This document shows positions 20,756 to 32,035 of a DNA stretch of 42,338 nucleotides, piece by piece. Source of the stretch: Clostridia bacterium (GTDB taxonomy: Bacteria > Bacillota > Clostridia > Oscillospirales > CAG-272). Numbering within the stretch: the stretch's first letter is position 1; each line of letters opens with the position of its first letter. The notes under the pieces were generated by a model. It had not been told where the DNA came from and ran no database searches. It was given only the letters and a program-made list of their open reading frames with translations. The stretch lies in the NCBI GenBank assembly GCA_017467815.1, contig JAFUKI010000165.1:1-42338 (forward strand). The letters are read 5' to 3'. The translations under genes and the position numbers were made by a program.

Positions 20756-21286
20756 ATGAAAAACGTACTGATTGTTGTAGATATGCAGACAGATTTTGTA
20801 AACGGCGCACTGGGAACAGCGGAAGCACAGGCAATCGTACCCGCTGTGGAAAAATACATCCGGGAAGCAAAAGCGGCAGGCACCGAAATCCTGTTTACCC
20901 GCGATACCCATAAAGAAGAGTATATGGAAACCAGAGAAGGCAAATATCTGCCGGTACCCCACTGTATTGCCGGTACCGATGGCTGGCAGATCATCCCGGA
21001 ACTCATCCCCTATACAAAGGATGCCGCGGTGATCGACAAACCCACCTTCGGAAGCGTGGAACTGATGCAGAAGCTGACGAAGGAAAACGCATCCGACCCC
21101 ATTGACCGTATAACACTGATCGGACTTTGCACGGACATCTGCGTTATATCCAATGCCATGCTGCTCAAAGCCGCCATGCCGGAAGTGGATATTGCCGTAG
21201 TATCCTCATGCTGTGCCGGCGTAACAGCGGAAAGTCATAAAAATGCACTGGAATCCATGAAAATGTGCCAGATCGAAGTACTGTAA
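20756..21286 (+). CDS. Nicotinamidase/isochorismatase-fold cysteine hydrolase
   Basis: The protein has 176 residues. The catalytic triad is Asp9 (VVDMQTDF), Lys95 (IDKPTFG) and Cys125 (GLCTDICV). Possible metal ligands of a PncA-like site are Asp50, His52 (RDTHKEEY) and His69 (PVPHC). With that site it may deaminate nicotinamide to nicotinate. Relatives cleave other amides or isochorismate, so the substrate is open. The start has AGGAGG upstream. It lies behind the Liv-type importer and may act on an imported amide, but the hairpin between them means the link is only suggestive. Confidence 0.82.
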   Translation: MKNVLIVVDMQTDFVNGALGTAEAQAIVPAVEKYIREAKAAGTEILFTRDTHKEEYMETREGKYLPVPHCIAGTDGWQIIPELIPYTKDAAVIDKPTFGSVELMQKLTKENASDPIDRITLIGLCTDICVISNAMLLKAAMPEVDIAVVSSCCAGVTAESHKNALESMKMCQIEVL

Positions 21287-21361
21287 ACAGAGAAAAAGAA
21301 AAAAACCACCCATACGGATAGCCCAAAAACGAAATATTTCTGTCACATTCCCCTTTTTCTG

Positions 21362-21436
21362 AAGCTTTTTGAAAAGAGAGAGGGGTGCAGGGGAGGGAGA
21401 AAGACTTTTTACAAAAAGTTTTTCTCCCTCCCCTGC
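21362..21436. repeat. Long-hairpin intergenic element, copy 1
   Basis: A lead-in CTTTTTGAAAAG (21365-21376) is followed by a hairpin with arms 21387-21410 and 21413-21436, 24 bp paired including one G-T, with a 2-nt loop. The tip (GACTTTTT against AAAAAGTT) matches copy 2 at 31631-31684, while the outer stem differs. It lies between the converging hydrolase gene and tRNA and is probably a two-way terminator. Confidence 0.8.
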
Positions 21437-21457
21437 AAAATACGACAACCCTATTTA

Positions 21458-21530
21458 AGCTGGTAGCCGGACTTGAACCGGCGACCTGTTGATTACGAAT
21501 CAACTGCTCTGCCAACTGAGCCATACCAGC
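21458..21530 (-). tRNA. tRNA-Thr, anticodon CGU
   Basis: The minus strand folds as a 73-nt cloverleaf. The acceptor arm is GCTGGTA with TACCAGC, the D arm is GCTC-AGTTGGCA-GAGC, the anticodon stem is GTTGA with TCAAC around the loop TTCGTAA (anticodon CGT, read CGU, for ACG), and the T arm is GCCGG-TTCAAGT-CCGGC. The discriminator base is T and CCA is not encoded. It has its own consensus promoter. Confidence 0.96.
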
Positions 21531-31630: not shown

Positions 31631-31684
31631 AAAGTTTTTTGAAAAGGGCGCGGGGAAGACTTTTTTCCAAAAAGTTTTCCCCGC
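31631..31684. repeat. Long-hairpin intergenic element, copy 2
   Basis: The lead-in TTTTTTGAAAAG (31635-31646) is followed by a hairpin with arms 31650-31665 and 31669-31684, 16 bp with one G-T and a 3-nt loop. Tip and lead-in match copy 1; the outer stem is GCGGGGAA rather than the longer purine stem of copy 1. It too lies between converging genes. Confidence 0.8.
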
Positions 31685-31711: not shown

Positions 31712-32035
31712 TCAGGAAGCCAGGTATCTTTCGAGCCAGATGATGCCGAGGTCCATGGCATTGCCGAGACCGTCTTCGATCGCCTGTTTTACGATACGTT
31801 TGTGGGAGGGGAGGGTAGTGTCTGTGTTCATCAACTGTACGACAACCTTGTCGGGTACGGACTGACCCTTGTAATCCTTGGTGGACATGATGATCATCTG
31901 GAGCATATATTTTTCATCCATACTGCCGTAGCAAATGATATTTTCTTCACGTACGAGAGGACGGTTGCGATACATAATAAAGCTGCCGTTCACTGTGGAT
32001 ACAATTTCTTTTTTATCGATATTCTTTTCCGCCAT
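31712..32035 (-). CDS. Small conserved-looking protein of unknown function
   Basis: The protein has 107 residues, with no signal or membrane segment. It mixes strand-like parts (SFIMYRNRPLVREENIICYGS, YMLQMIIMSTKDYKG, KVVVQLMNT) with a helical C-terminus (HKRIVKQAIEDGLGNAMDLGIIWLERYLAS). I do not recognise the family. It is a real gene by its near-consensus promoter, its AAAGGA ribosome site 8 nt before ATG 32035 and codon use like its neighbours. It is monocistronic and ends close to the long-hairpin element. Confidence 0.75.
   Translation of the reverse strand: MAEKNIDKKEIVSTVNGSFIMYRNRPLVREENIICYGSMDEKYMLQMIIMSTKDYKGQSVPDKVVVQLMNTDTTLPSHKRIVKQAIEDGLGNAMDLGIIWLERYLAS

Follow-up and report, generated by a model that had tools for sequence, protein, structure and literature searches.

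What is the long hairpin that lies between two convergent genes in the window, the 42,338-nucleotide stretch of Clostridia DNA analysed here, and what, if anything, does it do for the genes beside it? An earlier note had described a near-perfect hairpin with a 2-nt loop (copy 1), preceded by a short lead-in, and a second copy in which tip and lead-in recur on an outer stem that differs in sequence but is still self-complementary. Both descriptions hold. The arms of copy 1 are 25 nt each, 96% complementary and separated by 2 nt, and a 101-nt stretch folds at −59 kcal/mol compared with −26.4 kcal/mol for shuffled sequence (z −9.85; none of 200 shuffles equalled it). The lead-in of copy 1, CTTTTTGAAAAG, starts at 21365, and that of copy 2 reads AAGTTTTTTGAAAAG. 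Both copies sit between convergent genes as described, copy 1 between an isochorismatase-family ORF (+) and tRNA-Thr (−), and copy 2 between a LysR-type regulator (+) and a 107-aa ORF (−). An Rfam search gave tRNA as its only match above the gathering threshold, with weak matches below it, for example to microRNA hairpins. A plasmid search with 8 kb around the element returned weak gene-level matches, mostly to ABC-transporter genes.

The two hairpins belong to a family that this gut Clostridia genome carries in more than 100 copies (assembly of 3.0 Mb, 91% complete, 177 contigs). We counted 169 occurrences of the tip pattern CTTTTTN1-6AAAAAG in these 3.0 Mb and 21 of its reversed control; for the lead-in AGTTTTTTGAAAAG, the exact occurrences number 71, with 0 for its control. 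With copy 1 as query, blastn gave 74 matches, and roughly half of these repeat, on the opposite strand, a place that had already matched. A covariance model, the kind of scan that the earlier note had proposed for finding more copies, was built from 17 diverse copies and gave 160 matches at E ≤ 0.001, with both strands counted at some places; no fewer than 19 of these duplicate, on the other strand, a palindrome already matched, which leaves about 140 places or fewer, and because the count comes from the best 150 candidates scored, the total may be low. In two tandem regions, L083 (C10:13876-14120) and L089 (C105:22330-22565), copies form inverted pairs with similar outer ends (TGTCGCA...TAATTTT) and a common spacer, AATATTTCTGTTGCAAA, and these look like a composite repeat unit.

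That the stem itself is kept had been argued from the two copies alone, and the larger set bears this out. Across 17 copies, 12 of 22 stem pairs are changed on both sides (38 cells), a result that none of 500 shuffles produced. Unpaired cells in the 17 long-stem copies are only A.C mismatches, which occupy two neighbouring positions beside the crossing described below, 9 at one and 8 at the other, with one mismatch in every copy (17/17). An A.C mismatch on the sense strand is a G.T wobble on the template strand, and among 79 distinct stems there are 76 G.T wobbles on the template strand versus 17 on the sense strand.

The unit extends past the hairpin. We took as gene-sense the direction in which the complement of the lead-in follows the hairpin, which is the minus strand of the window for both copies. 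Read this way, each copy consists of a purine arm (P), the tip, a pyrimidine arm (Y), a short linker and a third segment, M. M is the mirror of Y and thus the parallel complement of P, and it is antiparallel-complementary to neither arm; examples of P and M are GGGGAGGGAGAAAA / CCCCTCCCTCTTTT, GGGGGAGGAAAA / CCCCCTCCTTTT and GGGGGAGGAAGAAAA / CCCCCTCCTTCTTTT. The lead-in of copy 1, which had been given on the plus strand, falls within M and the segment that continues it. With the third strand to the left of the hairpin, the unit of copy 1 spans about 21350-21437 (Table 1). This third strand, to which the lead-in belongs, and the fixed orientation reported below are additions to the earlier description. 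In this genome, M can alternatively pair in a second hairpin, H1.

Table 1. Positions of the two elements, their parts and their neighbours in the window, with the alignment columns of the stem mismatch.
Feature	Position	Strand	Basis
Copy 1, purine arm P and 5′ half of the tip, gene-sense TGCAGGGGAGGGAGAAAAACTTTTT	21413..21437	−	inverted repeat
Copy 1, pyrimidine arm Y, Watson-Crick partner of P	21386..21410	−	inverted repeat, fold, P-Y covariation over 17 copies
Copy 1, putative third strand M, gene-sense CCCCTCTCTCTTTTC, parallel complement of P	21371..21385	−	own versus permuted M (66 distinct pairs), ortholog swap, other genera
Copy 1, continuation of the putative third strand matching the tip, gene-sense AAAAAGCTT	21362..21370	−	tip covariation, other genera
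Copy 1, second hairpin H1 with M as 5′ arm (alternative pairing), no T-tract	21350..21385	−	fold
Copy 1, covariance-model match	21362-21434	−	E 2.6e-22
tRNA-Thr (CGT), gene preceding copy 1, 20 nt away	21458..21530	−	ARAGORN, Rfam tRNA
Convergent isochorismatase-family gene on the opposite side of copy 1 from tRNA-Thr	20756..21286	+	Pfam PF00857, E 4.1e-35
Copy 2, P-tip-Y hairpin, gene-sense GCGGGGAAAACTTTTTGGAAAAAAGTCTTCCCCGC	31650..31684	−	
Copy 2, putative third strand M, gene-sense GCCCTTTTC	31641..31649	−	
AAAAAACTTT after M of copy 2	31631-31640	−	
107-aa ORF, no Pfam match, stop codon 27 nt ahead of copy 2	31712..32035	−	
A.C mismatch positions	alignment A2, columns 16/34 and 17/33		long stems, this genome

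The match between M and P is specific to each copy. Among 66 distinct pairs the P-M match was 0.68, compared with 0.45 (sd 0.018) when M was permuted, and the lengths of P and M rise together (rho 0.81). When parallel complementarity was set against antiparallel, direct and reversed relations, it was the best description of 82 of the 86 copies here and of most copies in four congeners. A match of this kind could be a statistical by-product, arising when P arms that start with G-runs and M segments that start with C-runs are inherited among related copies. The permuted baseline is indeed high, 0.42-0.61, with G-runs facing C-runs, and copies within one genome are related, a kinship that inflates the significance of permutation within the genome. 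However, the difference between a copy's own M and that of another survives permutation among copies of equal P length (the observed match was reached in 0 of 5000), swapping between orthologues and extension to further genera, and the tip covaries as well even though it is no purine tract. We consider a by-product very improbable. To our knowledge, no replication or repair process makes parallel complements. Watson-Crick pairing neither makes nor needs a parallel match of M to P, and a third strand in the major groove of the P-Y stem would. On sequence evidence, the three consecutive arms fit the triplet rules and would place the family among intrastrand triplex motifs (PIT/TM) in the broad sense.

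About 20 copies carry a second small palindrome (approximately GAAGATTTGCGNAGCAATTCTTC or GAGATTTGCGNAGCAATTCTC) inserted in the linker or the lower stem, among them L084 (C12:8925 on), L096, L108, L113, L116 and L128, as well as L168 and L170 in the congener G017. These insertions leave the P-Y-M match intact, as if a repeat had landed within a repeat.

Comparison with relatives allowed the copy-specific match to be followed at the same gene. Orthologues of element-bearing genes in four congeners, deposited as Oscillospiraceae or Clostridia bacterium MAGs, often have an element at the same place with a different stem. Behind a ROK-family gene, for example, P and M are GGGGGAGGAAAA/CCCCCTCCTTTT in G000, GGGGAGGGAAGAAA/CCCCTCCCTTCTTT in G017 and GAGGGGAACTTTTG/CTCCCCTCAAAACC in G012, and Spo0A has an element in G000, G004, G012 and G022. 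We exchanged M between orthologous elements that were intact and had different P, which gave 22 species pairs from 9 genes. A copy's own M was the better match in 20 of these, with 2 ties and none worse; with one pair per gene, it was better in 8 of 9. G001 and G015 mostly have a plain terminator at those orthologous gene ends.

The family is also present in many other genera. The covariance model matched 51 of the 118 genomes searched, which represent 36 of the 84 genera, with at most the best ~41 candidates scanned per genome. Use of the exact lead-in as a measure of distribution had pointed to a few congeners and was abandoned; it misleads because the anchor letters change with the tip. For a fresh test we used 40 copies from seven further genomes (two congeners, the rest from other genera), with M left unpaired in the model. 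Own M scored 25.0 compared with 17.8 for permuted M (sd 0.54, maximum 19.9), and the parallel relation was best in 37 copies. In these genomes the covariation of P and M continues through the tip, with M following changes such as TTTCTG/AAAGAC, TTTTCG/AAAAGC and CCTTTTCTG/CCAAAAGAC. Among the matches listed, a pattern scan of named genomes returned mostly Clostridia MAGs, many of them from animal guts, and a scan of viral contigs for the exact pattern found none. Also among the matches listed are single ones in Desulfobacterales, Deltaproteobacteria and Lentisphaerae MAGs (L244, L285, L271, L256), mostly with the same P-Y-M layout, which may reflect contamination or a wide distribution. One rabbit-gut Clostridia MAG has four tandem copies with a 163-bp period (L272, 2437-2974), and other rabbit-gut loci (L215, L216, L220, L229, L292) have the element beside other G/C-rich hairpins (GCGGGGGCTTCGCCCCCGCGCCCCC, CGCGGCTTCGCCGCG). 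The GCGGGGGCTTCGCCCCCGCGCCCCC hairpin in rabbit-gut MAGs is also followed by a C-run, a possible third strand.

The position and direction of the elements behind genes are fixed. Genes around the copies, on draft or metagenome assemblies, were called with a purpose-written simple dicodon caller. By this measure, 57 of 85 copies start within 45 nt past a sense stop codon, where 7.5 (sd 2.7) would be expected at random intergenic places, and when the orientation was flipped at the same places only 1 of 81 lay within 45 nt of a stop. The median distance from stop codon to copy is 21 nt for copies facing a gene end. Copy 1 counts as an exception in this tally, as the gene preceding it is a tRNA. 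The seven further genomes behave similarly, with an open frame of at least 85 codons ending no more than 60 nt ahead of the hairpin in 29 of 40 copies (median 15 nt). In rabbit-gut MAGs, the distance to the stop codon is often hundreds of nucleotides. Convergent placement, which the earlier note had taken from the two copies, does not extend to the family: the contexts in view are 49 tandem, 32 convergent and 2 divergent. We dropped convergence alone as a test, since the consistent pattern is the short distance to a single gene.

The same note had suggested a specialised two-way terminator, a reading that loses its footing when orientation is tied to the preceding gene and no canonical terminator is called at the copy 1 hairpin. 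Ordinary intrinsic termination, possibly in both directions, could still be proposed, with the hairpin or H1 stopping transcription and the M-P match a by-product. The elements are placed where terminators sit, and in this genome 23 of 67 copies have at least 6 T in the 10 positions after H1. At copy 1, however, the G+C-rich hairpin directly followed by a T-tract that characterizes Rho-independent terminators was not found, and minimal copies in relatives lack both the 3′ arm of H1 and the T-tract. Nor does termination call for an M that follows P. Separate canonical terminators also stand behind some copies: in the stretch behind the elements one was called in the sense direction at 15 of 87 copies and in the antisense direction at 1 of 87. 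Of the 15, a few correspond to H1 of the element and the others lie farther downstream, so at least some copies are located between a stop codon and a terminator. On the tRNA-Thr strand past copy 1 we observed a terminator-like site (21303-21324, −), a 9-pair stem followed by a T-run, and since this lies beyond the element, copy 1 is probably inside the tRNA-Thr transcript unit. Because minimal copies do without the second hairpin and the T-tract, and ordinary terminators can follow, termination fails as a general explanation, and we think it quite unlikely to account for the family. The minimal copies likewise rule out H1 as the main function.

Another explanation, which the earlier note had offered as a small mobile repeat, is that this is a mobile or gene-converted repeat, REP/REPIN-like or MITE-like, which inserts or survives only behind genes. 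Each genome has many similar copies with species-specific stems, copy number is uneven among congeners, and inverted pairs occur in some tandem regions. At IF2, one congener (G022) looks empty beside another (G012) and keeps a downstream terminator like that of G012; this is a possible empty site whose exact junctions cannot be set. Against mobility, several elements recur, with different stems, behind the same orthologous genes in up to five species, and the third strand and the orientation are left unexplained. We asked whether REP-type transposases accompany the family: four PF01797 (Y1-transposase) matches were found in this incomplete assembly, and their loci had no match to the tip or the lead-in, which rules out a REP/RAYT link through these genes. 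The inverted pairs were also considered as composite transposons, and this was set aside for the many pairs that lie between convergent genes, where each of the two genes has its own copy; some pairs in tandem regions do not fit that account. We regard mobility as possible in part but a mobile origin as unlikely to account for the family, though less so than a terminator.

We favor a different explanation, with odds that we place slightly above even: the family would be a gene-end element of three strands, forming an alternate-strand intrastrand triplex behind genes. The order is a stop codon or tRNA end, about 20 nt, P, the tip (C-TTTTT-loop-AAAAA-G), Y, a short linker and M. P and Y would form the hairpin, and M would run from the base of the stem toward the tip alongside P, binding it as a triple helix. 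Near the tip, at the C-G pair or pairs, M would cross over, leaving the purines of P and continuing on those of the other arm. Such a triplex may form during or after transcription of the gene and affect the polymerase, the template strand or the end of the transcript. The orientation and tight spacing lead us to infer that it exists in vivo and influences either transcription of the preceding gene or the resulting transcript. Its role would most likely be that of a 3′ boundary, located upstream of the ordinary terminator, which would hold back RNA polymerase, keep the template strand open once the gene is finished, or protect the end of the transcript.

Which strand would fold is suggested by the letters themselves. 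Where P is A, M is T or A (164 and 19 times in this genome, 193 and 30 in the further set), and where P is G, M is C or T. On the template strand these read as A.A-T or T.A-T and as G.G-C or A.G-C; three of the four are standard triplets of the purine motif, according to the rules given in PMC4666352. T.A-T, which stands where P and M are both A, is an allowed triplet of this motif. These letter statistics, with the polarity of the wobbles, lead us to lean toward the template DNA strand folding as a purine-purine-pyrimidine triplex. At the tip, the A and G letters of M match purines of the other arm. A third strand is known to change from one strand to the other by matching such purines, and the rule holds here on either strand. 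Two features sit less well. The C's at the crossing are matched by C's (C to C 46 times, in equal or nearly equal number), against the triplex code, and 27-31 cells with P=G and M=T fit either strand poorly. Also speaking against the three-strand reading are the alternative pairing of M in H1, the long distances to stop codons in rabbit-gut MAGs and the absence of terminator, promoter or polymerase effects for the related PIT elements.

The main alternative to template DNA folding is a triplex in the sense transcript. An RNA triplex in the 3′ UTR, with C+.G-C and U.A-U triplets along P and then A.A-U and G.G-C at the tip, would block 3′-5′ exonucleases or help the polymerase release. The fixed gene orientation and the 15-21 nt spacing from the stop codon would suit it, as would the downstream sense terminators (15 of 87, against 1 antisense), which put some copies within the transcript, and the sense strand also satisfies the triplex letter code along P and at the tip. 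In contrast, P=A with M=A forms no standard triplet on the sense strand, where A:A is non-standard under general triplet rules, and all 17 long stems have an A.C mismatch on that strand. The RNA form would further need runs of protonated C, and C+.G-C runs are unfavorable at neutral pH. Purine-motif triplexes, in turn, are said to exclude RNA third strands, according to the title of a reference in PMC4666352. Each strand thus has a weak side, and we rate the transcript triplex as a possibility with clearly less than an even chance. In either case, the strict orientation to genes points to an involvement of transcription.

A literature search for triplexes in bacterial terminators or 3′ UTRs found nothing relevant among the papers searched. 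Whether intrastrand triplexes have any function in bacterial cells has been a question since the description of the PIT elements, whose near-identical copies gave no means of telling conserved features from the rest. In the present family the three strands differ in sequence and remain matched, both between orthologous genes and between genera, in a fixed place and direction. The family therefore offers a way to test by comparison whether triplexes are conserved, along with a natural set of variants in which changes are compensated, and a gene-end signal of these gut bacteria may have passed as ordinary terminators or repeats. We put at about even the chance of the broader proposal that a selected triple helix marks many gene 3′ ends across a bacterial family, with stem and third strand having co-evolved over many genera as an alternate-strand triplex, and that it would be a 3′-end device unlike known terminators.

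The closest known elements are the PIT/BoxC/TMECO repeats (Hoyne & Maher 2002; Holder et al. 2015, PMC4666352), which likewise have three matched arms on a single strand, dispersed intergenic copies in bacteria and uneven copy number between close relatives. As described in PMC4666352, they have the order Y-R-R, 9-nt arms, a conserved sequence (consensus CCCTCNCCC N3-6 GGGNGAGGG N3 GGGNGAGGG) and intergenic positions without strand bias, and earlier work cited there saw no terminator, promoter or polymerase effect in vivo. Here the arms run R-Y-Y on the sense strand and R-R-Y on the template, vary in length and sequence yet stay matched, and at the tip the match switches to the other arm. The elements have a fixed orientation and spacing relative to the preceding gene (57/85 versus 1/81), and the long tip exceeds the 1-6 nt loop limit that PMC4666352 gives for the TMECO search program. 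The family differs in the two features we tested, arm order and absence of orientation bias, and so it is no TMECO, although by its sequence it appears to share the intrastrand-triplex principle. Like REP, BIME and REPIN sequences, the elements are dispersed palindromes at gene ends, sometimes in inverted pairs, but their orientation to the gene is fixed, they have a third strand, and no gene of the Y1/RAYT type was found linked to them. With Rho-independent terminators they share a stable hairpin 10-35 nt behind the stop codon; unlike these, they do not require a T-tract, conserve the third strand and have ordinary terminators behind some copies. Finally, ENE-type RNA triplexes, which occur at the 3′ ends of viral and eukaryotic RNAs, hold an A-rich tail, mostly through U.A-U triplets. 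The proposed structure would resemble them as a major-groove triplex near an RNA 3′ end and would differ in matching a whole hairpin arm, G-C pairs included, in bacteria.
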